A stretch of DNA of 64,000 nucleotides from Rhizoclosmatium globosum. Taxonomy: Eukaryota; Chytridiomycota; Chytridiomycetes; Chytridiales; Chytriomycetaceae. The stretch lies in assembly GCA_002104985.1 (NCBI GenBank), contig MCGO01000091.1, forward strand, positions 97,526 through 161,525, written 5' to 3'. The notes beneath the pieces were generated by a model. The model was not told where the DNA came from and made no database searches. It saw only the letters and a program-made list of their open reading frames with translations. The translations under genes and the position numbers were made by a program. Positions 41,601-64,000 of this stretch are shown in pieces (the stretch's first letter is position 1; every line of letters begins with the position of its first letter).

Positions 41601-42928
41601 CACTTATTGGTGTGCCTCAAGAAACTAAGTACTTTGAGCAATATAGTCATCTTGTAACTGCACGTATAACTATCGGGGCTGAAAAGAACTGGGGCCCATT
41701 AACACTCACTGGGCATTCCAGTATGGTGAGATCAGTGGCATTCTCCCCTGACTCAAGGACAGTCGTTTCTGGATCAGAAGACCAAACAGTCAAATTATGG
41801 TCTGTGGAAACAGGAGAATGTGTCAAGACCCTTGCTGGGCATTCTTTGTCTGTTAGATCAGTGGCATTCTCACCTGACTCAAGGACAGTTGTTTCTGGAT
41901 CAGAAGACCAAACAGTCAAAGTATGGTCTGTGGAAACAGGAGAATGTGTCAAGACCCTTGCTGGGCATTCTTTGTCTGTGAGATCAGTGGCATTCTCACC
42001 TAACTCAAGGACAGTCGTTTCAGGATCAGAAGACCAAACAGTCAAAGTATGGTCTGTGGAAACAGGAGAATGTGTCAAGACCCTTGCTGGGCATTCTTTG
42101 TCTGTGAGATCAGTGGCATTCTCACCTAACTCAAGGACAGTCGTTTCTGGATCAGAAGACCAAACAGTCAAATTATGGTCTGTGGAAACAGGAGAATGTG
42201 TCAAGACCCTTGCTGGGCATTCTGACGCAGTGAATTCAGTAGCATTCCACCCTGACTCAACGACAGTGGTTTCTGGATCAGGTGACCATACAGTCAAATT
42301 GTGGTCTGTAGAAACAGGAGAATGTATCAAGACCCTTGCTGGGCATTCTGACTCAGTGAATTCAGTAGCACTCTCACTAAGGACAGTGGTTTCTGGATCA
42401 AATGACCAAACCATCAAATTGTGGTCTTTTGAAACAAGGAATTGTGTTAAAGTGCAGAACCTTGCTGGGCATGATGGCATAGTGTTTTCAGTGGCATTCC
42501 CAGACTATTCCCCCCAGACTGTCGTTTCTGGATTTGCTGACAAACAAATTAGATTGTGGTCTGCAGAAACAGGGGAATATGTCAAGAATACTGCTAGGCA
42601 TCATGGGAAAGTGTGTTCAGTGGCATTCTCACCTGACTCAAAGACAGTGATTTCTGAATCAAATGACAAAACAATCAAATTGTGGTCTGTGGAAACAGGG
42701 GAGTGCATTGAAACATCTAATTGGGGCAGACATGACAAATCAGAAATATTCATGTCCTTATCGGAGAAATTTAGCTCTTCAAAGTTAGCTATATCAGATG
42801 GATGGCTTTGTAATATAGATGGAACATACCTGTACAATCTTGGTGAAGAAATAAGGTTTAGTTTTGATCATATGGCTGTTACTTGGTGCATTAATAATAA
42901 TGTCTTTTGCCTGAGTCTCAAAGAATAA
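38688..42928 (+). CDS. Ubiquitin-like/Crinkler-type header - TIR - NACHT - WD40 receptor (NLR-like)
   Basis: Fungal NLR-architecture protein. Exon 1 (38688-38822) and exon 2 (38874-39137) encode a header with ITVSDLKQKIKDIQKYPDD, like the ubiquitin-fold start of Crinkler proteins. The TIR domain (39.38-39.9 kb) has VFDVFISYCWADMNIVELF and, across an intron, EAYFKSENCNREIKYA, retaining a Glu where TIR NADases have their catalytic one. The NACHT ATPase has P-loop GAAGTG(K)S, Walker B TILIVIDALDEL, FTTGRPE, and SAGLFIFACN after frame correction. A linker (CRSILKFENGIISVLHKSVKDFF) precedes eight WD40 blades. The frame is broken at 40091-40097, 40149-40154 and 40687-40693, each one base short in an A or G run. 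Probably an innate-immunity or allorecognition sensor (inference). Confidence 0.78.
41705..42712 (+). repeat. Eight WD40 repeats; blades 1-5 are a 126-bp near-identical tandem array
   Basis: Units begin at 41705, 41831, 41957, 42083 and 42209 with exact 126-bp spacing; blades 2 to 4 differ by only a few bases. Blades 6-8 (from 42335) are more divergent, and blade 6 lacks three residues of the FSPDS segment. Each unit reads LAGHS..VRSVAFSPDS then a WD-type end (VKLWSVETGECVKT). Confidence 0.95.
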
Positions 42929-42975
42929 AAGAGTTAAGGGTTTCTATACTCTTGGGTCAGTTGGGTTAGACCCAT

Positions 42976-43041
42976 AGACCCATGCTACCATGCTACTATG
43001 CTACCATGCTACCATGCTACCAAAATTCATGCTACCATGCT
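42976..43041. repeat. CATGCTAC short tandem repeat
   Basis: Imperfect tandem copies of an 8-9 bp CATGCTACC unit lie between the NLR gene and copy A. Unstable simple repeat with no ORF. Confidence 0.85.
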
Positions 43042-43158
43042 TCCAAACTGGTGTGATAATTAACCATAGATATATCTTACTCCATAAATGGATATAGTAT
43101 AGTGGTTCTATACTGTTGGATTAAAAAGAGTTTGTAACGTCAGACCAAGAGAGGAGAA

Positions 43159-46100
43159 ATGAGTGAAACCCAAAGGTGAGTATGAGTCTGTTTGAGTTGT
43201 GTGTATCTCAAAATGGAGAGAGTTGTACATCAGGATGCAACTTATGATCCGACAATAATTTTGGATGTCTGAGTGGGCTGAAGGGGTCGGGGTTATGCCA
43301 AGGGGGGTTTCTTTGTGTTTGGTGATGGTGGGATGGTGATAGTTGTATGTGCTGTGGGTGGTTGTGTTGGGTGGTTGGTTCATCAAATGATAGCTCTTGA
43401 AGAACTCCATCTATTCATCCCTTCAAAAGCCCCATATCTTTTATGTTAAATAAGGCATTGCTATCCTTTCTGATTATTCCTCATTGATCATCATACTTTA
43501 AATCCTTTTTACTTACTACCACCACTTTCCAACAATAGATCAGAACGAGAATGTTCCATGGAAGAGTGCAAGGACGTTCCTGCCTTCAGCAACAAGTATG
43601 CATTGGCAAAACATGGGAGGATGGTTCACCAGCGAGTTGTTTCTGTTCGATATTGGATCAATGACTACACACGTAAGTTCTTTTGAAAGAAAACATAAAT
43701 AACACATCTTAATTTAGAGGAAGATGTACTCACAATTATTCCAAGAGATTCAGACAACAACATGTTCAACTGCATCAAGTGTGACCTTGCTGTAAGCCAT
43801 CCAGAGAAGCTCCAGAATCATGTCAGAAAGGCAAAGTGTGGCTTGACTCATCCTGCCATATTTGGGTTCATGTGCTTGGATTGTGCCTATGTTTGTGTTA
43901 CAGAGAATGGCATCAGGGTTCACTGTCGAAACAAGCATCCAAAGAATCCATACTGGGGATACAGGCCAACCAAAGTGACAAAAGTTCACACTCGTGTCTA
44001 CAGAATGTATAACCCAGAGGAAGGCTTTGATGCCAAGATGAGATCCAAGGAACTCAAGAGCTTTGCCCGTAAACAGAAGAAGATTAAAAACACTGCTGGA
44101 TCACGTTCAAAAGCTTATTTATCCACTGGATTGGAAACTGCTGGTTTGATTGCCTCTTCAAGCAAAACAAACACTCCATTCTTGAATAATGTATGTCTTT
44201 TGTTTTCCTGTGGGTCCATTACTTACTCTATGTGAAATAGATGGGATGGGACAAGTTGGTGTTTGGTGTTGATGCAATCAAGAATCCAGCCAACTACATT
44301 GCCATATTGAATGAGACAAAAGACACAAAGGCCATTGTAATTCTCTGTCGTTTATTTTTGGAGAAAGTCAATGAGTTGGCAACTCTGCCTGGAACCCAAC
44401 CAACCCGCACTGTGATCAAGAATGCTGGCCGTAAATCAACAAATGACTCTGGATATGCAGGAAAGGCTTTCAAGCCTATTGATGTCAAAACTACTATCCC
44501 AGCATACGCTAGAACACTTGGAGTATTTGTAACCATGTTGATTGCTCGTAAGCAGGGCTCCAACACAAGAACAAAGATGCCAATGCTAAGTAATGAGGTC
44601 AACAGAGCTGTTGAGGGATTCTTGGAGGCCCTTGATGTTCCTCTCCTTTGCAGAACAAATGCAGTCTTTGAGAATCAGCAAGAAGCTCTGATCAAATTGC
44701 TGCGAATTGTCTTGTTTGAAGATATTGGATTTGAAGGTCTGAACACAAGTCAAATCCATTTGGTGGAGGAGTTCTTGTTGCTAAGATTCCTGCAACCTGA
44801 TGGTACTTTTTGCAAGGAACAGCTCATGACTGGGCCATGTACTCATTTTTTGTTTACTTGTCGTTGTCTTGTCTTGGAATGGTGTCAAGAAATTGCTTCT
44901 TTTGGAACTTGGATGAGTAGAGCCGAGAAGGAAAAGTGAGTTTTTTGTATTTGTCTGCTCTTTCTAAATATGTTTAAAACAAGGGAAATCAATCAAGTTA
45001 TTGAGCTTGTCAGCTATGGGAAGCATAGTCTCCCTTATGCCAAAATGAAGCAATTCAAGTCCACGTGTGGATTGATCATGATGGGCAGTAATACAGCCAA
45101 TCTCATTAGCAAGCATTGGGATTACAGTTTGCCTAATGAGCCAAAGTTGGTTATCGATGGTCGCTTGGGTGTTTCAAAGACCATGTTCCGGGAAGGTCGA
45201 GCAAACTACTTTAGAGTGATCACAACAGATCTCAGTAATTTGCTGTTTGGGATGGATGTTTCAGACTTCACGTTTCACCCAAAATGATTGACTGACAATG
45301 TCTCAAACTCAAGACCAGGCTACAGCTTCATGACAGAGCAAGCCAACAGCTCTACATTTAATGAAGAAAATGGGAACAGACTTGAAATGCACATCAAAAA
45401 GACCAAGTACTTGAGGACTGAGTTTTTTGAGCCCACAAGACTTATCTACAAATCAGAGGCAATGGAGCTGTACACTGGTATTTTGGTTCAATTTGCTGCA
45501 TTCATCTGACCCTTTTCTTTCTTTTTAGCAAAAGTGGACAACTTTATTTCCATTATGATGCTTGGTCTTGCATTGTTTTGTGGAATGCCTCCCAGAACAA
45601 CAGAGTTTCAAATGACGACTATTGTGAATTCTGGGTTGGGAAAAAGGAACTTGATGATTCTTGAGCACAGATTATGCATCAACTTGAGGTAATTTGTGTC
45701 CTTGTTTGGGGTGATTTACTTAGCAACACGGTTTGAAAAAAGATACAACAAATCAAGTGCAAACTCTGGATTTCATAAAGACTTATTTCGGTTTGTTCCA
45801 GATGAGCTAGCACAGATTCTTGTAAAGTATCTGGTCTTTGTTTATCCACTCTATATGTAAGCACTTACTTGTATTGGTTGTGGTGACTACTTATGAAACA
45901 ACAAAGTGCATTCTGGGCTGACATAAGAATCCGCAAGAAGCTGACTTTCTTGACCCATGAAGATGAAATCCAAGCCAAACCTTATCTCTTTTTGAGAAAC
46001 GGAATCCCTACCAAAGTATCCAAGCTACATGGCTTGTACATTCAAAACTTTTGGAATGTTTTTGGAGTCAATCTGGGTTACAACTGATGGTGCAGCTATT

Positions 46101-49470: not shown

Positions 49471-49789
49471 AGTGTAGTTGTTCTATGTTAAAAATTCAGC
49501 CTGAATCAATCAAACCACCCAACAAAGCTTGTGGTAAGGAACTCTTGGAAGCTTCATCCAAGACAATGACAAATGCTTACTTTACAATAGTTTGAACCTA
49601 TGCTTGCACTTTATGCAGCAAAGCGAAGGATTGTATCCAATGTTCTAATAACAGAGTCTTTGGAAGTTGCCACGGCACATTGCCCTTTCTTGACTGTTCT
49701 TCTTAAAGCCACAGAGCAACAAGACACTGGATATTCAGTGTAAGTCTCTTTGATCCTAGACCAATTTAACGTAAGTGGTTCCGATTCTC
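49471..49789 (+). other. Gene-like exon remnant upstream of the retroelement
   Basis: Between a hypothetical ORF and the retroelement lies an exon-like frame at about 49589-49742 (FEPMLALYAAKRRIVSN ... ATEQQDTGYS) bounded by TAG and GTAAGT. A small upstream frame (NQSNHPTKLV, 49500-49533) ends at GTAAGG and splices to it in frame. This looks like part of a host gene cut by the element. No family recognised. Confidence 0.35.
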
Positions 49790-52028
49790 AAGATATCTTT
49801 CTGGAACATGCAAACAATTAGAGCATCTTCTGGTTAGGATTAGGGCCGAGCTCATCTACTATGGAGGTTCAGCAATGGTAAGAGTGTTTACCAAATTCTT
49901 GACTCTTGTACACAAGACATCTACTATTCCTTCTGAATGGAGGAATGCCACTATTGTCCCAGTATACAAGAACAAGGGCTCTCCTTCTGACATTGCCATG
50001 CACCGCCCGATTGCTCTCACCTGCACTGGACGCCGCCTCTATGAACGTGTCCTGCTGCCAGAACTTGTGCACCTAGCCATAGCAACGTTAGATGACACTC
50101 AAGCTGGTTTCCGCCCCTCCCGTTCCACCTTGGATCAAGTCATGGTATTGCACGAAATCCTGTCTGGTGCCAAGGAAGCTTTTGCAGTGTTGCTGGACCT
50201 GAAGGCTGCATATGATATGGTGGACAGGGACATTCTTTGGAAAGAGCTGGAGACATACTTTGGAGTATCAGCTGCAGCCATTCAACGTCTTCAGGATCTG
50301 TTTGACAAGAATCAGAGTATGCTGGTTGTTGCTGGAAAGATGAGTATTCCCATACCCAATGCTCGTGGTTTACTCCAAGGGTCTACCCTCTCACCTATCC
50401 TCTTCAACTTCTTCATTGATCCTCTCTGCAGAAGACTCAAGGCCATAGAAATGCCCACCATTGCAGTCCATGGAGTGCGTGTGAATCGGTTATTGTTTGC
50501 AGATGACACTTCTCTGGTGGCATCAAACACAAGAGACATGGCCAAGTTGCTCAAGACCTGCGAAGACTGGAGTAGGGACGTTGGCATGCAGTTTGCTCCT
50601 CAGAAATGTGTTGTACTTGGGCCACCAATCAACAGGAGAGACGTTGCCTTGAAGATGTATGGAGTGGATTTGCCTTCAGAGACTAGTGCATTGTATCTTG
50701 GAGTCCCCTTCAACTCTTCAGGAATCTGCTGGAAAGAGATGGTATTGGCAAGAACTACTAAAGCCAAACAGGTCATTGCTTCTCTTGCTCCCATTGGATT
50801 CAATGCCAGAGGTTGGGCCCCTGCTGCTTCAGCCAGAATCTACAAGGCTTTCATCCGTCCTGTCATGGAGTATGGTCTTGCTCTCTATGGCCATGGTATG
50901 CCAGCCAATCTGTTGACCTACTATGAGCGAGTCCAAACTATGGCACTGCGAACATTGACGTCAACTCCAAGAAACACCTCCAAGGTTGCTCTCATGAAGT
51001 TACTCCAAGTAGAACCCATGTCCTATCGCGCAAAGATACTGAACTTGAATTGGGCTGCTCGTCTCAACTCCTCAGGTGATGAAGGAAACTTGGCTGTTAA
51101 AGTTTTTCACTATGCTATTCAGCCTGCTAGAACACCTCACAAGAACTCACTCCCAAAGCTTGCCATGCAGAACTCACTCTGGAACCATCCAGAAATCAAC
51201 AAGCCCCACCCGCAACTGCAACGTGCACCTCTTGCAGTCCAAGCAACACGACCTCTGCCTCTCCTGGAAAAGCAGAAGCTGAAGAAGCAAGCAATTGTGG
51301 ACTTGGCTGATCCAAAACCTGGGGGAGTTGGGGATGCAATTGAAGTTACCATGTCTGATCGAGTCAGGCCCTTTCTGCAGCCCAAATCTGGAATTTCAAG
51401 AGAAGACCGGTGGCTCTTACTTCAGTGGACTCTAGGCGCAGTGACTCGTCATGAAGAATGCAAAAAATGTACTGATATGCTTACCAGGGCCCATGCTGCT
51501 ACATGTTCTGGTGCTGACCTGTTGCTCAAGACTCTCCATGAAGATGTTCCACCACCACTCTGCAGGAGACACACTCGTATCGATGCTGTTCTGAACAAGT
51601 ACCGCTCTGTTGCTCCAAATAAATCCACTGCCTATTCCAGCTGTCTGATTGCCATCAAGCTGATTCTCACCAAGTGCCGAGGACTGCGCAGACGCCAAGA
51701 GGATGGCTACTGGACCAACCAAGACCAGTCTGACAATGAGGAACCACCACCAAGACCAGCTGCACCGCCACCGCCAAGATCTGCTGCTTCAATGATCCGC
51801 TCAGCAAGAAGTGCCAGGCTGGCCCAAGAAAGAAACAGACCGCGTGGGAGACCACCAAACCGCCCCAGGGATGTAGGAGGAGAAGGATGAGTTGCAGGGA
51901 GGATGTGTATTGGATATATTAGACAGGATGAGTTGATGTGTGTGTGATCATGATTGGAAGTGAAGTTATGGGATATGAATTATATTGAATTGGTTGAACA
52001 TGCGTGAATAAACTGCCATTGATACCGT
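49790..52028 (+). mobile_element. 5'-truncated non-LTR retrotransposon (LINE) ending at telomeric repeats
   Basis: Carries one reverse transcriptase ORF with no endonuclease domain upstream; the frame is open back to about 49790 without a start, typical of 5' truncation. The 3' UTR (51891-52028) runs directly into GTTAGGATTAGGGTTAGGG. No poly(A) tail, target-site duplication or LTR is visible. Confidence 0.75.
49875..51890 (+). CDS. LINE reverse transcriptase with C-terminal zinc knuckle-like motif
   Basis: RNA-directed DNA polymerase of a non-LTR element, 671 codons from the first ATG (true protein longer). RT blocks in order: WRNATIVPVYKNKG, RPIALTCTGRRLYERVL, QAGFRPSRSTLDQV, VLLDLKAAYDMVDR (first catalytic Asp), GLLQGSTLSPILFNFF, F-A-D-D-T-S-L (catalytic pair), and GMQFAPQKC/LGVPF in the thumb side. 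C-terminal HEECKKCTDMLTRAHAATC is a CCHC-type zinc motif seen in jockey-like fungal elements. The frame is intact across 2 kb, so the copy may be recent. The Arg/Pro-rich end is probably nucleic-acid binding. Confidence 0.88.
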   Translation: MVRVFTKFLTLVHKTSTIPSEWRNATIVPVYKNKGSPSDIAMHRPIALTCTGRRLYERVLLPELVHLAIATLDDTQAGFRPSRSTLDQVMVLHEILSGAKEAFAVLLDLKAAYDMVDRDILWKELETYFGVSAAAIQRLQDLFDKNQSMLVVAGKMSIPIPNARGLLQGSTLSPILFNFFIDPLCRRLKAIEMPTIAVHGVRVNRLLFADDTSLVASNTRDMAKLLKTCEDWSRDVGMQFAPQKCVVLGPPINRRDVALKMYGVDLPSETSALYLGVPFNSSGICWKEMVLARTTKAKQVIASLAPIGFNARGWAPAASARIYKAFIRPVMEYGLALYGHGMPANLLTYYERVQTMALRTLTSTPRNTSKVALMKLLQVEPMSYRAKILNLNWAARLNSSGDEGNLAVKVFHYAIQPARTPHKNSLPKLAMQNSLWNHPEINKPHPQLQRAPLAVQATRPLPLLEKQKLKKQAIVDLADPKPGGVGDAIEVTMSDRVRPFLQPKSGISREDRWLLLQWTLGAVTRHEECKKCTDMLTRAHAATCSGADLLLKTLHEDVPPPLCRRHTRIDAVLNKYRSVAPNKSTAYSSCLIAIKLILTKCRGLRRRQEDGYWTNQDQSDNEEPPPRPAAPPPPRSAASMIRSARSARLAQERNRPRGRPPNRPRDVGGEG

Positions 52029-52051: not shown

Positions 52052-52221
52052 AATTGTTGTCTTCAAACAGATACAGTGTGTATGGAGACAACATCAAGAC
52101 AACAGTCGCAGCCTACAGTGCTCTTCCCCCAAAGGAGGAAGTACTCGAAGACATGCTCAAGCTTTCGACAAACAATCGACCAGAACGATTCGAGTTCTGG
52201 GAGCGTAGACTCGCAACCGCG
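52052..52221 (+). pseudogene. Gene fragment trapped between telomeric tracts
   Basis: A reading frame of about 55 codons (YSVYGDNIKTTVAAYSALPP ... NRPERFEFWERRLATAV) has normal coding composition but no start, stop or splice context. It is bounded on both sides by TTAGGG tracts. No family recognised. It looks like filler DNA captured at a former chromosome end. Confidence 0.5.
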
Positions 52222-52283: not shown

Positions 52284-52434
52284 GTTTATACCCTTAGTGT
52301 TGGGATGGGTTAAGATGGTCAACTGGACCATACCTTCATAAATAGTCAAAACAACCAATATAACTCTTATTTCAACCTCAAAGAATGCTGTTAAGTGTTT
52401 GTTGGGGCCAGGTTTTAATTTGGGTTATGTCTTG
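52284..52434 (+). repeat. 151-bp subtelomeric block, copy 1
   Basis: Starts GTTTATACCCTTAGTGTTGG and ends GGGTTATGTCTTG, directly before a CAGACG/CAGATG microsatellite. It is almost identical to the blocks at 52695-52845 and 57424-57574, with a shortened one at 57281-57394. This copy is not followed by an element left end. Confidence 0.9.
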
Positions 52435-52581
52435 CAGACGCAGACGCAGACGCAGATGCAGATGCAGACGCAGATGCAGATGCAGAGCAGATGCAGACGC
52501 AGATGCAGACGCAGACGCAGACGCAGACGCAGATGCAGATGCAGACGCAGACGCAGATGCAGACGCAGATGCAGATGCAGA
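52435..52581 (+). repeat. CAGACG/CAGATG hexanucleotide microsatellite
   Basis: About 24 imperfect 6-bp units. One frame reads Asp-Ala repeats, one Arg/Cys and one Gln/Thr. Shorter versions (52846-52882, 57575-57611) precede elements B and C, where the Asp-Ala frame runs directly into the recombinase gene's first exon. Confidence 0.95.
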
Positions 52582-52694
52582 CTCCTATTCTCTAACTGCT
52601 CACTTATCAATAAAAGAACATTTATACATTAATTTTATACACTAAATAAACGTAAAAACACCATTTCCCACACCACTTTTTTCTGACCCATCCT
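52582..52694. other. Short unique spacer
   Basis: AT-rich spacer between the long microsatellite and the second 151-bp block; no gene seen. Confidence 0.5.
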
Positions 52695-52845
52695 GTTTAT
52701 ACCCTTAGTGTTGGGATGGGTTAAGATGGTCAACTGGACCATACCTTCATAAATAGTCAAAACAACCAATATAACTCTTATTTCAACCTCAAAGAATACT
52801 GTTAAGTGTTTGTTGGGGCCAGGTTTTAATTTGGGTTATGTCTTG
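52695..52845 (+). repeat. 151-bp subtelomeric block, copy 2 (left flank of element B)
   Basis: Same length and nearly the same sequence as copy 1, followed by a short CAGACG/CAGATG run (52846-52882) and then the left inverted repeat of element B. It probably acts as promoter and leader for the recombinase gene. TCTTGCAG at its end could be a splice acceptor for an Asp-Ala-coding first exon. Confidence 0.85.
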
Positions 52846-52882
52846 CAGACGCAGACGCAGATGCAGATGCAGATGCAGACGC

Positions 52883-53001
52883 TCAACAAGAGTTCAAATT
52901 AAAAGACGAGAACGAAAAGATGGATCAACAAGAAAGGTATGATTTGAGCGAGAACGGGAGCAGTGAGGTGAAATTTTGGAGACAGAGTGGGGGTGGGTCA
53001 A
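52883..53001 (+). repeat. Left terminal inverted repeat of element B
   Basis: Begins TCAACAAGAGTTCAAATTAA and ends GGGGGTGGGTCAA. It includes the start codon (52920), exon 1 and the first splice donor of the recombinase gene. Confidence 0.9.
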
Positions 53002-56000
53002 GGTTTGATCCTGTGGTCTGTGGGAATGGTTGGTCTAGGGTTGATGGGTTTGTGGCAAGAGTGAGTTGTTGATCAAGTTTGGAAATGTTGGTGTTGGTGT
53101 TGTGTGAGCTGTAGTTGGTTGTGTTGGGTGGTTGGATCATCAAATGATAGCTCTTGAAGTACTCTTTACAATCCATCTTAAAACTATCTGTCTATTCTCT
53201 ATTTTGAGGCAATTATTGCTGAAGTGTTGATTCTTGTTTGAAATTCAGACAAGAACTTTAAAATCATTTTCTGACTCTATGAAACAACAGATCCAAAGTT
53301 GAATGCCCCAACCCAGAGTGCAAAGACATTGCACCCTTCAACAACAAATTTGCTTTGGGAAAACATTATAGATTAGTCCACCAGAAGGTTGTTTCTGTTC
53401 GTTATTGGATAAATGACTACACAAGTGAGTGCTTTGATCTCTTTTCTTATTAAATACTAAACTTTGATTGGTTTGTTAGAAGAGGATGAGCTCACTTTAT
53501 TCCGAGGGATTCTGAGGACAATCTGTTTCACTGCAACAAGTGCAACCTTGCAGTAGACTTTCCCGAGAAGCTCCAAAGCCATGTCAAGAAAATGAAATGT
53601 GGTCTGACCCATCCTGCCAGATTTGGATTCATGTGCCTGGACTGCAACTATGTTTGTGTGTCTCAAAGTGCCATCAGGGTACACTGCAGGGCTGAACACC
53701 AAAAGAATCAGTATTGGGGGTACAGGCCAACTCAAGTTGTTAAACTATATGCACGGGTCTTTGGAATGTATAAGCCAGAAGAAGGATTTGATGCTCGCCA
53801 AAGAGCCAAGGAACTTAAAAGCCTTGCGCGTAAACAGAAACAGATCAAAAACACTGCTGGATCACGTTCGAGAGCTTACTTGTCTACTGGATTGGAAACT
53901 GCTGGTCTGATTGCCTCATCAAGCAAAACCAATACACCGTTCCTGAATAACGTAAGTGTTTTGGGGGGCCAAAAATTACCAGTTAACTTTTTCGGATTAG
54001 ATGGGATGGGACAAGTTAGTTTTTGGTATTGATGCCATCAAGAATCCAGCAAAGTACATTGCTATCTTGACAGAGACAAAGGACACCAAGACAGTGATTA
54101 TGTTGTGTCGTTTGTTCTTGGAAAAAGTCAATGAGTTGGCAACTTTACCTGGGACCCAACCGACACGTACAGCCATCAAAATGCTGGTCGCAAATCCACC
54201 AATGACACTGGGTATGCAGGAAAGGCTTTCAAGCCTATTGACGTGAAGGGACCATCCCAACGTATGCGAGAACTCTTGGGTTATTTGTCACAATGTTGAT
54301 TGCTCGTAAGCAAGGTGCCAACACAGGCACCAAAATGCCCAAGTTGCGTGATGATGTGAACGAAGCTGTTGAGGCATTGTTGGAGACACTTGATGTTCCC
54401 CTGCTTTGTAGAACTAATGCAGTCATTGAGAATCAGCAAGAAGCACTGATCAAGTTGTTGCGCATTGTTTTGTTTGAAGACATTGGCTTTGAAGGCCTCG
54501 ATACTGGTCGGATCCATTTGGTCGAAGAATACCTGTTGCTCAGGTTTTTACAGCCTGATGGCACATTTTGCAAAGAGCAACTCATGACTGGACCTTGTAC
54601 TCATTTCCTGTTTGCTTCTCGTTGCTAGTTTGGAATGGTGCCAAGAAATTGCTTCGTTTGGTTCATGGATGGCAAGAGCTGATAAGGACAAGTGAGGCAT
54701 ACTTGTTTTAAGTCTTTTATTCATATCTGTTAAAAACAAGGGAAATCAATCAAGTCATTGAGCTTGTCAGTTATGGAAAGCATAGTCTCCCCTATGCCAA
54801 AATGAAGCAGTTCAAGTCCACATGTGGATTAATCATGATGGGCAGCAATACAGCCAATCTATTAGCAAACATTGGGATTACAGTTTGCCTAATGAACCCA
54901 AGTTGGTTATCGATGGTCGCTTGGGTGTTTCAAAGACTATGTTCCGGGAAGGTCGAGCAAACTACTTTAGAGTGATCACAACAGAACTCAGTAATTTACT
55001 GTTTGGGATGGATGTTTCTGACTTCACGTTTGACTCAAAACGATTGACTGACAATGTCGCAAACTCAAGACCAGGCTACAGCTTCATGACAGAGCAAGCC
55101 AACAGCTCTACATTTAGTGAAGAAAATGGGAACAGACTTGAAATGCATATTAAAAAGACCAAGAACTTGAGGACTGACTTTTTTGAGCCCACAAGACTTA
55201 TCTACAAAACTGAGGCAATGGAGCTGTACACTGGTATTTAGTTTTTATTGGCTGCTGCATACATCTGAGCTCTTATCTTGTAGCTAAAGTTGACAACTTC
55301 ATTTCTTATTGATGCTGGTCTTGCCTGTTTTGCGGAATGCCTCCCCGAACAACAGAGTTCCAAATGACCACCATTGTGAATTCAGGTTTAGGCAAAAGAA
55401 ATTTGATGATTCTTGAACACAGATTGTGCATCAACTTGAGGTGAGTTGTCCCCTTGTTTTGAGTTAGGGCACTGAAGTTTGAAAAAGATACAACAAGTCG
55501 AGTGCCAACTCCGGATTTCATAAAGACTTGTTTCGGTTTGTTCCAGATGAGCTTGCACAGATTCTTGTAAAGTATCTGGTCTTTGTTTACCCACTCTACA
55601 TGTAAGCACTTGTAGTTATGGTTGACTACTGATAAAACGACAAAGTGCGTTCTGGGCTGACATGAGAAACCGCAAAAAGCTTACGTTCTTGACCCATGAA
55701 GATGAAATCCAAGCCAAGACTTATCTGTTTTTGAGAAACGGAATCCCTTGCAAAGTATCCAAATTGCATGGCTTGTACATTCAGAATTTCTGGAGCGTTT
55801 TTGGGGTAAATCTGGGAATCCGTCACACTCGACAAATGATGGCGTCATTTGCAGATCATATTGACTTTGAAGAGACAGCAGTGGCAGAAGTGAACACTAC
55901 TGTAAGTAGTCAATTTGGACATAGCTCTCAAGTGCATCAGAACAATTATGGGGCTACAACTGATGGAGCTGCCGTTATCCGTAAAATGAAGAGCATCTCT

Positions 56001-56620
56001 GATAAGTGGTGGAAGTGGTGCAGTTTGACGGGGGAGGGTGATTCCTCTTTGTATGCAGCTGGACCGCAAGTAGGTTCAGGTTCTGGGTCTCGCTCAGATT
56101 CAAGAGTGATTGAAGTTGACTTGGATGGCAGTAATGACAGTAATGACAGTGAGGTTGAGGGCAGTGAAGATGGTAGTGACAGTGTGGGGGCACTATTGTG
56201 GAAGAAGATGCAGATGATGAGATTTCGGAGGAGGGTCACGACAGTGTTTCTGAAGACGACCATGAAATCCAAGAGACAGAGAGTGATGCTGACTCCAAGG
56301 ATGAAAGTGCATTTGGTGATGATGAGATGCAACTTGATGGTGGTATCAGTGATGACCGCCACTCTATTGTTGATGCAGAGGAAGCAAAATCAAGTTCCGC
56401 TAAAGTAACAGACCAAGCAGGCACTGCAGGTGAATCAACCAATGACACCCGCCTTCACCCACGTTATCCCCGAGAATTTAATGATCCTGCATTGGCAAAC
56501 TTTTACTCCATGATTTACGAGTTTCTCGATGATCACGCTGAAGTTCTTGGATACAATAATACACCAAGTGAGGATGAAGCTTGGGCCACAGATTATGACA
56601 ATGATGATGATGATGAGTGA
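52920..56620 (+). pseudogene. Copy B of the zinc-finger tyrosine-recombinase-like gene (frame breaks)
   Basis: Exon plan as in copy C: first exon 52920-52936, and last exon ending with the stop at 56618-56620. Catalytic blocks are all present, including GIRHTRQMM and QFGHSSQVHQNNYG. Compared with C, single bases are missing near 53500 (TTTATTCC), 54180 (CAAAATGC), 54250 (a G in GAAGGGACC), 54627, 54850 (CTATTAG), 55305-55320 and 56190, breaking the frame repeatedly. All are one-base losses, mostly beside runs. So it is either a young pseudogene or an intact copy with consensus errors. The rest of B is almost identical to C. Confidence 0.75.
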
Positions 56621-56840
56621 CAGACTTAAGTGAATGAGTCTCTGTAGTCTAAAAATGGTGGACATCTTGGACAAGTCATGAAGCACATTAATTTATTTTC
56701 TTTCCACTTCATAATTAAAATTTCAGTCTGTCTTCTTTATTTGACAAAAGCTTTGACAGAGGAGAGTACTTTGTATTTGTAGTGTAAGACACCAGTAAGT
56801 CTTACAACCATATCTTACACGCAGTGAATACAACCATTTA

Positions 56841-56959
56841 TTGACCCACCCCCACTCTGTCTCCAAAATTTCACCTCACCGCTCCCGTTCTCGCTCAAAT
56901 CATACCTTTCTTGTTGATCCATCTTTTCGTTATTGTCTTTTAATTTGAACTCTTGTTGA
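56841..56959 (-). repeat. Right terminal inverted repeat of element B
   Basis: Reverse complement of 52883-53001 with about three differences, so it carries an antisense copy of the gene's exon 1 and splice donor. Confidence 0.9.
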
Positions 56960-57073
56960 AACTGTTGTGACTGTTGAAAGGTTGCTCAATGGTTCCAAGA
57001 GGGACTGAATTGTCAGCTTCTTTTGTTTTTGTTAAAGATTGACACACTCACCCTCCTTCTCAGTATCACCTGA

Positions 57074-57240
57074 AAATAGGATTATACTATTCCTTAATTC
57101 CAAGGTAGTCTATAGGTACAGCTTCAGATTAAGGAATAGGATTATACTAATCGTAAATAGGATTATACTATTCCTTAATTCCAAGGTAGTCTATAGGTAC
57201 AGCTTCAGATTAAGGAATAGGATTATACTAATCGTAAATA
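57074..57240. repeat. Two 81-bp tandem units related to the terminal satellite
   Basis: Unit core AATAGGATTATACTATTCC ... CAGATTAAGGAATAGGATTA is repeated twice plus a partial third. It shares the AAGGAATAGGAT and ATTCCTTAA parts with the 77-bp satellite at the chromosome end. Confidence 0.85.
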
Positions 57241-57280
57241 GGATTATACTATTCCTTAATTCCTTAGGGTTAGGGTCAGG

Positions 57281-57394
57281 GTTTATACCCTTAGTGTTGG
57301 GATGGGTTAAGATGGTCAACTGGACCATACCTTCATAAATAGTCAAAACAACCAATAGAACTCTTATTTCAACCTCAAAGAATACTGTTAAGTG
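57281..57394 (+). repeat. 151-bp subtelomeric block, truncated copy 3
   Basis: Matches the first 114 bp of the block, then breaks into degenerate telomeric sequence. Preceded by CCTTAGGGTTAGGGTCAGG. Confidence 0.85.
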
Positions 57395-57423
57395 GTTAAG
57401 ATTAGGGTTAAGGCTAGGTTAGG

Positions 57424-57574
57424 GTTTATACCCTTAGTGTTGGGATGGGTTAAGATGGTCAACTGGACCATACCTTCATAAATAGTCAAAACAACCAATA
57501 TAACTCTTATTTCAACCTCAAAGAATGCTGTTAAGTGTTTGTTGGGGCCAGGTTTTAATTTGGGTTATGTCTTG
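57424..57574 (+). repeat. 151-bp subtelomeric block, copy 4 (left flank of element C)
   Basis: Full-length block after a degenerate telomeric tract, followed by a short CAGACG/CAGATG run and the left inverted repeat of element C; same order as for element B. Confidence 0.9.
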
Positions 57575-57611
57575 CAGACGCAGACGCAGATGCAGATGCA
57601 GATGCAGACGC

Positions 57612-57749
57612 TCAACAAGAGTTCAAGTTAAAAGACGAGAACGAGAAGATGGATCAAGAAGAAAGGTATGAATCAAGCGAGAACAGGAGTAGTTAGGTGA
57701 AATTTCGGAGGGTGAGCGAGAGTGGGTCAATGAATGATATTCCATGGTT
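57612..57749 (+). repeat. Left terminal inverted repeat of element C
   Basis: Begins TCAACAAGAGTTCAAGTTAA and ends GATATTCCATGGTT. Contains the start codon (57649) and first splice donor of the gene. Confidence 0.88.
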
Positions 57750-60700
57750 TTTGTAAGTGTTGGACCTGAGGTTGATGGGATACTTAGGGGTGGGTGGTTG
57801 TAGATCAAGTTTGGAAATGTTGGTGGTGGTGTTGTGTGAGCTGTAGTTGGTTGTGTTGGGTGGTTGGATCATCAAATGATAGCTCTTGAAGTACTCTTTC
57901 CACACATCCTTCCTAAAACTCATTGTTTATTCTCTATATTGAGGCAATTATTGCTGAAGTGTTGATTCTTGTTTGAAATTCAGACAAGAACTTTAAAATC
58001 ATTTTCTGACTCTATGAAACAACAGATCCAAAGTTGAATGCCCCAACCCAGAGTGCAAAGACATTGCACCCTTCAACAACAAATTTGCTTTGGGAAAACA
58101 TTATAGATTAGTCCACCAGAAGGTTGTTTCTGTTCGTTATTGGATAAATGACTACACAAGTGAGTGCTTTGATCTCTTTTCTTATTAAATACTAAACTTT
58201 GATTGGTTTGTTAGAAGAGGATGAGCTCACTTTCATTCCAAGGGATTCTGAGGACAATTTGTTTCACTGCAACAAGTGCAACCTTGCAGTAAACTTTCCC
58301 GAGAAGCTCCAAAGCCATGTCAAGAAAATGAAATGTGGTCTGACCCATCCTGCCAGATTTGGATTCATGTGCCTGGACTGCAACTATGTTTGTGTGTCTC
58401 AAAGTGCCATCAGGGTACACTGCAGGGCTGAACACCAAAAGAATCAGTATTGGGGGTACAGGCCAACTCAAGTTGTTAAACTATATGCACGGGTCTTTGG
58501 AATGTATAAGCCAGAAGAAGGATTTGATGCTCGCCAAAGAGCCAAGGAACTTAAAAGCCTTGCGCGTAAACAGAAACAGATCAAAAACACGGCTGGGTCA
58601 CGTTCAAGAGCTTACTTGTCTACTGGATTGGAAACTGCTGGTCTGATTGCCTCATCAAGCAAAACCAATACACCGTTCCTGAATAACGTAAGTGTTTGGG
58701 GGGTCGAAAAATACCAGTTAACTTTTTCAGATTAGATGGGATGGGACAAGTTAGTTTTTGGTATTGATGCCATCAAGAATCCAGCAAAGTACATTGCTAT
58801 CTTGACAGAGACAAAGGACACCAAGACAGTGATTATGTTGTGTCGTTTGTTCTTGGAAAAAGTTAATGAGTTGGCAACTTTACCTGGGACCCAACCAACC
58901 CGTACTGCCATCAAGAATGCTGGTCGCAAATCCACCAATGACACTGGGTATGCAGGAAAGGCTTTCAAGCCTATTGACGTGAAGGGGACCATTCCAACGT
59001 ATGCAAGAACTCTTGGGTTATTTGTCACAATGTTGATTGCTCGTAAGCAAGGTGCCAACACAGGCACCAAAATGCCCAAGCTGCGTGATGATGTGAACGA
59101 AGCTGTTGAAGCATTGTTGGAGACACTTGATGTTCCCCTGCTTTGTAGAACTAATGCAGTCATTGAGAATCAGCAAGAAGCACTGATCAAGTTGTTGCGC
59201 ATTGTTTTGTTTGAAGACATTGGCTTTGAAGGCCTCGATACCGGTCGGATCCATTTGGTTGAAGAATACCTGTTGCTCAGATTTTTACAGCCTGATGGCA
59301 CATTTTGCAAAGAGCAACTCATGACTGGACCTTGTACCCATTTCCTGTTTGCTTCTCGTTGCCTAGTTTTGGATTGGTGCCAAGAAATTGCTTCGTTTGG
59401 TTCATGGATGGCAAGAGCTGATAAGGACAAGTGAGGCATACTTTGATTTCAGTCTTTTATTGATTTCTGTTTTTTATAACAAGGGAAATTAATCAAGTCA
59501 TTGAGCTTGTCAGTTATGGAAAGCATAGTCTCCCGTATGCCAAAATGAAGCAGTTCAAGTCCACATGTGGATTAATCATGATGGGCAGCAATACAGCCAA
59601 TCTCATTAGCAAACATTGGGATTACAGTTTGCCTAATGAACCCAAGTTGGTTATTGATGGTCGCTTGGGTGTTTCAAAGACCATGTTCCGGGAAGGTCGA
59701 GCAAACTACTTTCGAGTGATCACAACAGAACTCAGTAATTTACTGTTTGGGATGGATGTTTCTGACTTCACGTTTGACCCAAAACGGTTGACTGACAATG
59801 TCGCAAACTCAAGACCAGGCTACAGCTTCATGACAGAGCAAGCCAACAGCTCTGCATTTAGTGAAGAAAATGGGAACAGACTTGAATTGCACATCAAAAA
59901 GACCAAGAACTTGAGGACTGACTTTTTTGAGCCCACAAGACTTATCTACAAAACTGAGGCAATGGAGCTGTACACTGGTATTTAGTTTTTATTGGCTGCT
60001 GCATACATCTGAGCTTTTATCTTTTAGCTAAAGTGGACAACTTTATTTCTCTGTTGATGCTCGGTCTTGCCTTGTTTTGTGGAATGCCGCCCCGAACAAC
60101 AGAGTTCCAAATGACCACCATTGTGAATTCGGGTTTAGGCAAAAGAAATTTGATGATTCTTGAACACAGATTGTGCATCAACTTGAGGTAAGTTGTGTCC
60201 TTGTTTTGAGTTAGGGCACTGAAGTTTGAAAAAGATACAACAAGTCGAGTGCCAACTCTGGATTTCATAAAGACTTGTTTCGGTTTGTTCCAGATGAGCT
60301 TGCACAGATTCTTGTAAAGTATCTGGTCTTTGTTTACCCACTCTACATGTAAGCACTTGTAGTTATGGTTGACTACTAATAAAACGACAAAGTGCGTTCT
60401 GGGCTGACATGAGAAACCGCAAAAAGCTTACGTTCTTGACCCACGAAGATGAAATCCAAGCCAAGACTTATCTGTTTTTGAGACACGGAATCCCTTGCAA
60501 AGTATCCAAATTGCATGGCTTGTACATTCAGAATTTCTGGAGTGTTTTTGGGGTAAATCTGGGAATCCGCCACACTCGACAAATGATGGCTTCATTTGCA
60601 GATCATATTGACTTTGAAGAGACAGCAGTGGCAGAAGTGAACACTACAGTAAGCAGTCAATTTGGACACAGCTCTCAAGTGCATCAGAACAATTATGGGG

Positions 60701-61359
60701 CCACAACTGATGGAGCTGCTGTTATCCGTAAAATGAAGAGTATCTCTGACAAGTGGTGGAAGTGGTGCAGTTTGACGGGGGAGGGTGATTCCTCTTTGTA
60801 TGCAGCTGGACCGCAAATAGGTTCAGGTTCAGGGTCTCGCTCAGATTCAAGAGTGATTGAAGTTGACTTGGATGGCAGTAATGACAGTGAAGCTGAGGGC
60901 AGTGAAGATGGTAGTGACAGTGTGGGGGACACTATTGTGGAAGAAGATGCAGATGACGAGATTTCGGAGGAGGGTCGTGACAGCAGTGTTTCTCAAGACG
61001 ACCATGAAATCCAAGAGACAAATAGTGATGCCAACTCCAAGGATGAAAGTGCATTTGGTGATGATGAGATGCAACTTGATGGTGGTATCAGTGATGACTG
61101 CGACTCTATTGTTGATGCAGAGGAAGCAAAATCCAGTTCCGCTAAAGTAACAGACCAAGCAGGCACTGCAAGTGAATCAACCAATGACACCCGCCTTCAC
61201 CCACATTATCCCCGAGAATTTAATGATCCTGCATTGGCAAACTTTTACTCCATGATTTATGAGTTTCTCGATGATCACGCTGAAGTTCTTGGATACAATA
61301 ATACACCAAGTGAGGATGAAGCTTGGGCCACAGATTATGACAATGATGATGATGAGTGA
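57649..61359 (+). CDS. C2H2 zinc-finger protein with tyrosine-recombinase-like core (intact copy C)
   Basis: Eight exons: 57649-57665, 58026-58159, 58215-58687, 58736-59430, 59484-59977, 60028-60187, 60235-60348, 60393-61359. They total 3,054 nt, 1,017 residues, no frame break. N-terminus: three C2H2-type fingers (CPNPECK...H...H; CNKCNL...H; CLDCNY...HCRAEH), like the ORSD/DUF3505 module found in fungal subtelomeric genes. C-terminal half: FCGMPPRTTEF (box I Arg), YNKSSANSGFHK (Lys), FVPDELAQILVKYLVFVYP, LGIRHTRQMM (box II Arg), QFGHSSQVHQNNYG (His and nucleophilic Tyr). This is the layout of tyrosine recombinases. A Ser/Asp/Glu-rich acidic tail follows. A longer Asp-Ala-coding first exon upstream is possible. 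Activity is inferred, not shown. Confidence 0.82.
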
Positions 61360-61552
61360 CAGACTTTGTGAATGAGAATGGTAGATATCTTGGACAAGTC
61401 ATGAAGCACATTATTTATTTTCTTTTCATCTTCATAATTAAAGTTTCAGTTTGTCTTCTATATTTTACAAAAGCTTCAACAGGAGAGTACTTTGTATTTG
61501 TAATGTTAGACACCAGTAAGTCTTACAACCGTAACTAACACGCAGTAAATAC

Positions 61553-61689
61553 AACCATGGAATATCATTCATTGACCTACTCTTGCTCTCACTCCAAATT
61601 TCAAATCACTGCTCCTATTCTCGCTTGATTCATACCTTTCTTCTTGATCCATCTTCTCGTTCTCGTCTTTTAACTTGAACTCTTGTTGA
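61553..61689 (-). repeat. Right terminal inverted repeat of element C
   Basis: Reverse complement of the left repeat from AACCATGGAATATC to TCTTGTTGA. It matches the left repeat of C better than either repeat of B. Confidence 0.88.
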
Positions 61690-61796
61690 AACTCTCACTT
61701 GGTGGTGAAAGCTGTAAGTAGTTCCCACAACTGTTTATGAAAGAATTGTCACTCAGAAAATCCTTGACTCCTTCTCATATTTTGGTCCCAGTCATC

Positions 61797-63887
61797 GAGA
61801 ATAGGATAATAGGATTAATCCTATTCTTTAAACTGAGCCCCCATATAAGTAATGGCTGAGATTAAGGAATAGAATAATAGGATAATAGGATTAATCCTAT
61901 TCCTTAAAGTGAACCAGGCTTATAAGTAATGGCTGAGATTAAGGAATAGGATAATAGGATAATAGGATTAATCCTATTCCTTAGACCGAGCCCTCCTTAT
62001 AAGTAATGGCTGAGATTAAGGAATAGGATAATAGGATAATAGGATTAATCCTATTCCTTAGACCGAGCCCTCCTTATAAGTAATGGCTGAGATTAAGGAA
62101 TAGGATAATAGGATAATAGGATTAATCCTATTCCTTAAAGTGAACCAGGCTTATAAGTAATGGCTGAGATTAAGGAATAGGATAATAGGATAATAGGATT
62201 AATCCTATTCCTTAAAGTGAGCCCTGCTTATAAGTAATGGCTGAGATTAAGGAATAGGATAATAGGATAATAGGATTAATCCTATTCCTTAAAGTGAACC
62301 AGGCTTATAAGTAATGGCTGAGATTAAGGAATAGGATAATAGGATAATAGGATTAATCCTATTCCTTAAAGTGAGCCCTGCTTATAAGTAATGGCTGAGA
62401 TTAAGGAATAGGATAATAGGATAATAGGATTAATCCTATTCCTTAAAGTGAGCCCTGCTTATAAGTAATGGCTGAGATTAAGGAATAGGATAATAGGATA
62501 ATAGGATTAATCCTATTCCTTAGACCGAGCCCTGCTTATAAGTAATGGCTGAGATTAAGGAATAGGATAATAGGATAATAGGATTAATCCTATTCCTTAG
62601 ACCGAGCCCTCCTTATAAGTAATGGCTGAGATTAAGGAATAGGATAATAGGATAATAGGATTAATCCTATTCCTTAGACCGAGCCCTCCTTATAAGTAAT
62701 GGCTGAGATTAAGGAATAGGATAATAGGATAATAGGATTAATCCTATTCCTTAAAGTGAGCCCTGCTTATAAGTAATGGCTGAGATTAAGGAATAGGATA
62801 ATAGGATAATAGGATTAATCCTATTCCTTAAAGTGAGCCCTGCTTATAAGTAATGGCTGAGATTAAGGAATAGGATAATAGGATAATAGGATTAATCCTA
62901 TTCCTTAAAGTGAGCCCTGCTTATAAGTAATGGCTGAGATTAAGGAATAGGATAATAGGATAATAGGATTAATCCTATTCCTTAGACCGAGCCCTCCTTA
63001 TAAGTAATGGCTGAGATTAAGGAATAGGATAATAGGATAATAGGATTAATCCTATTCCTTAGACCGAGCCCTCCTTATAAGTAATGGCTGAGATTAAGGA
63101 ATAGGATAATAGGATAATAGGATTAATCCTATTCCTTAAAGTCAACCCCCTTATAAGTAATGGCTGAGATTAAGGAATAGGATAATAGGATAATAGGATT
63201 AATCCTATTCCTTAAAGTCAACCCCCTTATAAGTAATGGCTGAGATTAAGGAATAGGATAATAGGATAATAGGATTAATCCTATTCCTTAAAGTGAACCA
63301 GGCTTATAAGTAATGGCTGAGATTAATGAATAGGATAATAGGATAATAGGATTAATCCTATTCCTTAAAGTCAACCCCCCTTATAAGTAATGGCTGAGAT
63401 TAAGGAATAGGATAATAGGATAATAGGATTAATCCTATTCTTTAAACTGAGCCTCCCTTATAAGTAATGGCTGAGATTAAGGAATAGGATAATAGGATAA
63501 TAGGATTAATCCTATTCCTTAAACTGAACCCCCTTATAAGTAATGGCTGAGATTAAGGAATAGGATAATAGGATAATAGGATTAATCCTATTCTTAAACT
63601 GAGCCTCCTTATAAGTAATGGCTGAGATTAAGGAATAGGATAATAGGATAATAGGATTAATCCTATTCCTTAAACTGAACCAGGCTTATAAGTAATGGCT
63701 GAGATTAAGGAATAGGATAATAGGATAATAGGATTAATCCTATTCCTTAAAGTGAACCAGGCTTATAAGTAATGGCTGAGATTAAGGAATAGGATAATAG
63801 GATAATAGGATTAATCCTATTCCTTAAAGTCAACCCTCCTTATAAGTAATGGCTGAGATTAAGGAATAGGATAATAGGATAATAGGA
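61797..63887. repeat. Subtelomeric satellite: about 27 tandem copies of a 77-bp palindromic unit
   Basis: Spacing between GGCTGAG motifs is 77 bp (for example 61860, 61937, 62014, 62091, 62168). Each unit holds the perfect palindrome AATAGGATTAATCCTATT within a larger AAGGAATAGGAT/ATCCTATTCCTT stem. Variation is concentrated in a short window (ACCAGGC, CCCTGC, CGAGCCCTCC, CAACCCCC types). The last unit runs straight into telomere repeats. No ORF. Confidence 0.97.
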
Positions 63888-64000
63888 TTAAGGGTTAGGG
63901 TTAGGGGTTAGGGTAGGGTTAGGGATAGGGTTAGGGTTAGGGTTAGGGGTTAGGGTTAGGGTTAGGGTTAGGGTTAGGGTTAGGGTTAGGGTTAAGGGTT
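63888..64000 (+). repeat. Telomere (TTAGGG)n, right chromosome end
   Basis: G-rich strand reads 5'-3' to the window end, as at a right-hand chromosome terminus. The inner part has variants (TTAGGGG, TAGGG, GATAGGG); the outer part is regular TTAGGG. Confidence 0.97.

Follow-up and report, generated by a model that had tools for sequence, protein, structure and literature searches.

Inverted-repeat units with a conserved, recombinase-like motif-bearing gene at chromosome ends of the chytrid Rhizoclosmatium globosum

The right end of a contig of the chytrid Rhizoclosmatium globosum (C412, MCGO01000091.1, positions 97526-161525), a stretch of 64,000 nucleotides referred to here as the window, closes in telomere repeats and holds two units of 4.08 kb each (unit 1, 52883-56959; unit 2, 57612-61689), in which terminal inverted repeats (TIRs) flank one gene of 8 exons. 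Some 30 copies of this gene-bearing unit lie near R. globosum chromosome tips, and they fall into three families, a, b and c. The units are real, bounded by TIRs and specific to chromosome ends as far as mapped, and their left junctions are precise and alternate between two states. They are likely mobile. The most likely account has an enzyme guide their joining at a fixed motif and has them copied from tip to tip afterwards, with passive copying as the main rival. The parts of the two units, and of a third, diverged gene copy in the window, are the following.

52883..53001, plus strand: left TIR of unit 1, 119 nt; contains exon 1, with the ATG at 52920
56841..56959, minus strand: right TIR of unit 1, 119 nt, 97.5% match to the left arm
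57612..57749, plus strand: left TIR of unit 2; contains exon 1 at 57649-57665
61553..61689, minus strand: right TIR of unit 2, 138 columns, 92.8% versus the left arm, with one gap
52920..56620, plus strand: gene copy 1, family a, with a frameshift in the fourth exon
57649..61359, plus strand: gene copy 2, family a, open; 8 exons, GT..AG introns, 1017 aa
43159..46742, plus strand: family-b gene copy, the third and diverged one, decayed by an internal stop and an internal deletion
43121..43311, plus strand: family-b left inverted-repeat sequence, 191 bp, its end inferred from C374, C390 and C410
43106..43120, plus strand: 15-bp start motif TTCTATACTGTTGGA ahead of the family-b copy

An earlier note on this DNA had claimed inverted repeats of 119-138 bp at both ends of both units and the same gene in each. 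When the window was compared with its own minus strand (dust filter on, E 1e-8, inverted pairs of at least 60 nt), the repeats were confirmed, the only inverted pairs being the arms of the units, cross-matches between the units and the internally palindromic 77- and 81-bp satellites. Splicing and comparison confirmed the shared gene, open in copy 2 and frameshifted in copy 1. Blocks common to the two units are 85-100% identical, and copy 2 agrees with the public R. globosum model P0001 at 99% identity across 99% of the searched region. Since the left arm contains the start codon and first exon, the right arm carries a reverse repeat of the first exon. No right arm of the family-b copy, which lies beyond the bounds given in the earlier note, was found nearby in the window.

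Inverted ends recur in family b, where they were read in the sequence, and in family c, where they were mapped. Family a has six intact TIR pairs, with identity between the arms of one element (119 columns) of 100% on C50 and C92, 99.2% on C225, 97.5% and 91.6% in units 1 and 2 of C412, and 86.6% on C395; the right arms on C168 and C400 are partial. Mapping with about the first 30 bases of the arm gave five pairs among 26 family-b matches (C57, C260, C390, C410 (4.7 kb), C90 (19.7 kb)) and four among 16 family-c matches (C223, C401 (5.1 kb), C206, C246 (8.2 kb)), the family-c right arms being known from this mapping alone; both families have size variants with the same ends. The family-b arm measures 191 bp in the one pair read in sequence, with the outermost 7 right bases unread. 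On C390 the left and right arms agree at 138 of 138 readable bases, and the left arm of a different family-b element has 5 mismatches in 179 positions to the C390 right arm. Compared by blastn, the arms of a, b and c gave no mutual match. Since matched ends recur in all three families but some copies have no right arm, matched ends are a family property with exceptions, and the description of the units as TIR-bounded is supported.

We searched the genome with the last exon of the gene and obtained 36 matches, pieces counted, at 94-97% identity over the full probe in family a, 83-84% in family b and 76-77% in family c. The gene is directed to the nearer contig end in 33 of the 34 matches tallied for orientation; C223 (minus strand, close to the low-coordinate end) and the second C412 piece, at 143600, were left out of the tally. 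The sole inward match is a 122-base piece on C398, and a left arm with first exons on C379, outside the tally, is also directed inward. No tallied match lies farther than 30.7 kb from a contig end, and this limit applies to the 11 matches whose contigs exceed 250 kb. The earlier description of the units as subtelomeric holds, with (TTAGGG)n ending contig C412. A six-frame protein search, in which 50 of 129 candidates were scored, found only families a, b and c plus matches on C369 at 59-66%, which may be a decayed or further family member. Three protein searches for relatives brought up proteins of R. globosum alone (4, 2 and 6 of them), scoring in the searches that gave 4 and 6 having covered the 7992 candidates that share most words. 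As side observations on gene structure, family b has a second short open frame between gene and right arm (L018, L019, L022, L024 and L092; read in L092), and the family-a copies at loci L002, L014 and L008, which have no right arm, share another 3′ region, with a tRNA-like stretch recognised by eye in L002 and L014.

The 15-mer TTCTATACTGTTGGA has 84 exact copies genome-wide, compared to none for its reversed control. Its 77 distinct contexts (identical ones merged, three sites left out) lead into bodies of type d (30), b (9), a (8), c (8), e (7), f (7) and g (2) and into six others; the motif also heads unrelated non-coding tip repeats. The base directly before it is G in 76 of the 77 contexts, extending to GG in 66 and GGG in 57, an exact TTAGGG tail of 1-6 nt precedes it in 60, and 30 contexts have two or more telomere-like units within 26 nt of it. 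Proximal flanks are otherwise diverse, several of them being recognised by eye as broken genes of families a, b or c or retrotransposons (L042, L065, L068, L111, L114 and L128). The first TIR base follows the 15-mer directly at 11 of 21 family-b left ends (two of which differ by one base in an A run), at 8 of 11 in family c and at 7 of 21 in family a, among them C395 with its first TIR bases altered; one further family-a left end has a variant 15-mer. In the second junction state, TGGA is absent and the 11-mer TTCTATACTGT is followed by TYAA (five ends in b, two in c and three in a). One and the same flank, including the 11-mer, leads into family c on C206 and into family a on C379. Two discrete states at the precise end of dissimilar arms are not what whole-tip copying would lead one to expect, and these junctions are the main argument for an enzyme that would recognise both motif and end. 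At the C343 break, the window reads GTGCTCTT followed by CCCCC, and C343 reads GTGCTCTT followed by AGGG and TTCTATACTG (15-mer, family a), a pattern that would be expected from serial addition at broken, briefly healed ends, like those of Pyricularia survivors (PMC8381367). A reading in which the left end proper is the 15-mer and the TIRs are mere internal repeats was also considered, and was dropped because b and c have inverted ends of their own and the 11-mer stands at the exact TIR base.

Strong purifying selection acts on the gene. The ratio of nonsynonymous to synonymous substitution rates (dN/dS) was 0.065-0.067 between families a and b, 0.079-0.098 between a and c and 0.060-0.101 between b and c, with synonymous sites near saturation, and 0.02 between the last exons of window copies 1 and 2. 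The copy 2 protein has N-terminal C2H2-type fingers, recombinase-like motifs (RTTE, K, RHT, GHSS and Y) and an acidic C-terminal tail. Pfam recognised the fingers weakly (zf-H2C2_5, E 1.9e-4; OrsD finger similarity, E 0.16; both below the family cut-off) and returned no helicase, GCR1_C, integrase, capsid, polymerase or RVT_1 domain in scans of the gene, which bears out the earlier claim that the element is helicase-free. No DDE or other transposase family appeared in Pfam at E 10, and there was no RVT_1 inside units 1 and 2 among the matches listed. The catalytic pentad motifs proposed earlier are present and common to a, b and c, with the exception of P0001, which has LEIRHTGQ instead of LGIRHTRQ. 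The H-to-Y spacing is 9, as in lambda Int, and the R-to-H spacing is 33 versus 22 in lambda. Judged from motif order and spacing alone, there are about even odds that the protein would be a tyrosine-recombinase-like enzyme.

Independent tests gave such an enzyme no support, which also counts against the joining mechanism discussed below. Shuffling the domain 200,000 times produced the full pentad pattern in 144 cases, and the one window open reading frame found to carry it in full is an unrelated one, that of a reverse transcriptase; the pattern matches only 4 of the 9 known recombinases tried. Recombinase homology was not found in Pfam, NCBIfam, PHROGs, the PDB (sequence and profile) or phage-integrase profiles. 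The recombinase fold suggested earlier was not recovered: with phage integrases and Cre as targets hhalign reached 0.1-0.4%, which does not exceed the values of the negative controls (0.1-1.1%; Cre positive control, 82.9%), a comparison that is weak because the query profile holds three close sequences (Neff 1.1), and two AlphaFold2 predictions with low mean pLDDT (28.7 and 37.2) gave the fold no support.

The flanks of the units, and the remaining repeats of the chromosome tip, are arranged in the window as follows.

63891..64000, plus strand: terminal telomere repeats (TTAGGG)n, the last 110 bases of C412
61800..63891, plus strand: 77-bp satellite array, 27 copies
61690..61800, plus strand: right flank type R1, with all five of its genome matches adjoining a family-a right TIR
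56960..57073, plus strand: right flank type R2; 5 matches genome-wide
57074..57263, plus strand: 81-bp satellite, 2.3 copies
57264..57275, plus strand: interstitial telomere repeats separating units 1 and 2
52285..52834, plus strand: left flank of unit 1 with two copies (52285, 52696) of the tip-repeat start TTTATACCCTTAGTGTTGGG
57282..57563, plus strand: left flank of unit 2 with two copies (57282, 57425) of the tip-repeat start TTTATACCCTTAGTGTTGGG
52845..52882, plus strand: (GCAGAC/T)n adjoining the left TIR of unit 1
57574..57611, plus strand: (GCAGAC/T)n adjoining the left TIR of unit 2
52109..52125, plus strand: uninterrupted counterpart of the C343 flank
42942..42956, plus strand: variant start motif TTCTATACTCTTGGG ahead of an 8-bp tandem repeat

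Two of the five R2 matches adjoin a family-a right TIR and three lie 86 bp past a family-c right arm, the position of the family-c right end being inferred from its left arm; this 86-bp gap is constant on C401, C246 and C122. No independent flank was seen beyond an intact family-a right arm. Partial family-a right arms lead to a motif-headed repeat (C168), to telomere repeats (C400) and to another gene copy (C400). We do not claim a 4-bp target duplication (ACTG or TGGA), both sides never being readable within one 11-mer copy. The earlier note had set its element apart from copies that are only parts of larger segmental duplications. On the left this stands, with varied flanks and base-precise junctions; on the right, where only R1 or R2 follows intact family-a arms, the duplication reading holds in part, and target duplications, empty sites and independent right flanks were not seen.

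The reading we prefer, at slightly under an even chance, is that TIR elements are joined at the tip motif by their own predicted zinc-finger recombinase-like protein and then copied from tip to tip. The protein would act on the short motif and the inverted ends, and the element would be joined to a chromosome end at the fixed motif. Identical ends within one element suggest that one end may be copied from the other during movement. In the later spread between tips, everything distal of the joint would be copied, by analogy with telomere-attrition-induced replication in Pyricularia. Beside the results on the protein, further observations count on the other side. In just two of the six intact family-a pairs does the TIR partner stand alone as best match; it ties in two and is beaten by arms of other elements in the remaining two, and the family-a copies on C188, C343 and C113 end without a right TIR, with a different 3′ region. 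One orientation prevails, which is not expected of a symmetric TIR transposon that meets an asymmetric target. Ten of the 21 family-a left ends, both window units included, lie at or a few bases from a GCAGAC tract, and the left flank is another one or unread at 5 of 21 family-b and 1 of 11 family-c ends. Intact family-a right arms continue only into R1 or R2, which fits passive block copying too. Target-site duplications were not seen in copies readable on both flanks, nor was an empty site of a TIR unit, the uninterrupted flank having been found only for the C343 break. The prevailing orientation and the fixed right side together argue against a simple symmetric cut-and-paste element.

Passive copying of Y′-like tip blocks, only by break-induced or telomere-attrition-induced replication, with incidental inverted ends and a gene that serves telomere maintenance or has some unknown function, is a distinct possibility, short of probable. 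It accommodates the tip-directed gene in 33 of 34 tallied matches, R1 or R2 as the only continuation of intact family-a right arms, the interstitial TTAGGG between units, and truncated genes followed by TTAGGG and then the next unit (C377, C290 and C31, with only a G on C390; truncation judged by eye), the last being as in Pyricularia telomerase mutants (PMC8381367). It leaves unexplained, however, the mutually dissimilar family ends, the left junctions of three families, which take two discrete states with base precision at the TIR, and the one flank that carries a on C379 and c on C206. An ordinary TIR transposon with an unrecognised DDE or other transposase would fit the TIRs of 119-191 bp and the multicopy spread, and the recombinase motifs would then be chance, which is in line with their appearance in shuffles (144 of 200,000) and in an unrelated open reading frame; it seems very unlikely, given that Pfam returned no transposase family at E 10, that one orientation prevails and that target duplications were not seen. 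We find RNA-templated addition similarly hard to credit, in which antisense RNAs would have the 15-mer as their 3′ tail and a reverse transcriptase acting in trans, from a telomeric retrotransposon or telomerase, would copy them onto TTAGGG ends. Such addition would suit a 15-mer common to unrelated bodies, usually after a partial or single TTAGGG, much like the tails shared by long and short interspersed elements (LINEs and SINEs), and a telomeric retrotransposon with an inward-reading reverse transcriptase does lie in the same arrays (14 matches). That retrotransposon, however, starts at its own poly(A) junction and not at the 15-mer, the matches listed place no RVT_1 past 416 kb on C246 or between the motif sites of C201 (483-491 kb), both with motif-headed repeats, and the inverted ends are left unexplained. 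The reverse transcriptase beside the g-type site L075 belongs to such a separate retrotransposon with its own poly(A) junction, and a shared retrotransposon tail was therefore dropped as the main reading.

On the tested features the units do not belong to the Cryptons, Tec elements, telomere-linked helicase (TLH) blocks or telomeric retrotransposons. The Y′ elements of yeast and the TLH blocks of fungi are multi-copy, lie at chromosome ends with one prevailing gene orientation and have short telomere tracts between tandem units. The units described here are likewise multi-copy at ends, with a prevailing orientation and telomere tracts between tandem units, but they have TIRs, a base-precise start at a fixed motif and no helicase domain, and no relatives of their gene were found outside R. 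globosum. HeT-A is a telomere-specific retrotransposon with serial addition at chromosome ends. Euplotes Tec elements combine TIRs, a DDE transposase and a tyrosine-recombinase gene; our units share with them the TIRs and a gene that may be read as a tyrosine recombinase, and differ in that no other transposase was found in them, in their confinement to chromosome ends and in their prevailing orientation. Tec is placed among the DNA tyrosine-recombinase elements of ciliates in one part of PMC4157794. Cryptons, as described in part of PMC3212892, have 4- or 6-bp terminal direct repeats and no TIRs or long direct repeats, and CryptonF carries GCR1_C. A single large gene with recombinase-like R..K..R..H..Y spacing is common to Cryptons and our units, which differ from CryptonF by TIRs of 119-191 bp, C2H2-type fingers and the lack of a GCR1_C or integrase match. 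According to a section of PMC8547959, Cafeteria EMALEs have TIRs and some encode a predicted tyrosine recombinase; in contrast, each unit here has a single main gene, in which Pfam scans found neither a capsid nor a polymerase nor an integrase domain. Excerpts of PMC12857005 report that MoTeR and FoTeR have their 5′ end towards the terminus and that TLH genes are co-located with retrotransposons. Like MoTeR, FoTeR and HeT-A, the units are telomere-specific and would be serially added at ends; unlike them, they have no reverse transcriptase, keep introns and carry a tip-directed gene. In Pyricularia, subterminal sequence is captured by eroded ends that retain a short vestige of TTAGGG (PMC8381367); such attrition-induced replication alone gives neither a shared 15-bp start before unrelated bodies nor exact TIR junctions.

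Taken further, the preferred reading would describe a DNA element dedicated to chromosome ends, with families of unrelated inverted ends and its own zinc-finger tyrosine-recombinase-like enzyme, docking at an oriented 15-bp address (TTCTATACTGT with or without TGGA, which also heads non-coding tip repeats) and rebuilding eroded or broken tips as a DNA-based counterpart of telomeric retrotransposons. In this full form the proposal is tentative and rather unlikely. Telomere-dedicated mobile elements known so far are mostly retrotransposons (for fungi, PMC12857005 and PMC8381367). No account of such a DNA element was found in the open-access literature searched, and the papers listed for Rhizoclosmatium (20 of 8,495 and 10 of 10,696 hits) did not name the genus. 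If true, a DNA element with a predicted recombinase and a fixed chromosome-end address would be a second route of end rebuilding, and it would become testable how unrelated sequences share one exact start at broken ends. The gene family is itself new and strongly conserved, and has been found so far in one chytrid.

Other sequences of the tips were noted in passing. The telomere-associated non-LTR (long terminal repeat) retrotransposon is arranged as telomere or tip sequence, poly(T) and GAACATTCTTTATTCC, with its reverse transcriptase directed away from the tip, a geometry that resembles MoTeR and FoTeR (5′ end towards the terminus). It was found at loci L075, L044, L037, L068 and L074 (C51, C13, C395 and C35), and 12 of its 14 probe matches have 96-100% identity over the full probe. 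In families d, e and f (L061-L090), non-coding, GC-rich tandem repeats have the 15-mer as their exact start; a minus-strand frame of one kind, of 122-149 aa, is present in 7 of the 10 longer d bodies listed. In the window, a LINE-type reverse transcriptase at 49770-51890 reads outward (RVT_1, E 1.6e-28), and at 42942-43045 TTCTATACTCTTGGG is followed by (CCATGCTA)n, similar sequence on C168 joining a truncated family-a right arm (by eye). A gene at about 39234-42928 carries 126-bp WD40 repeats, and the frame upstream of it resembles what we take, from its motif, to be a Toll/interleukin-receptor domain; given this frame and the repeats, the gene near the tip is perhaps an NLR-like receptor.

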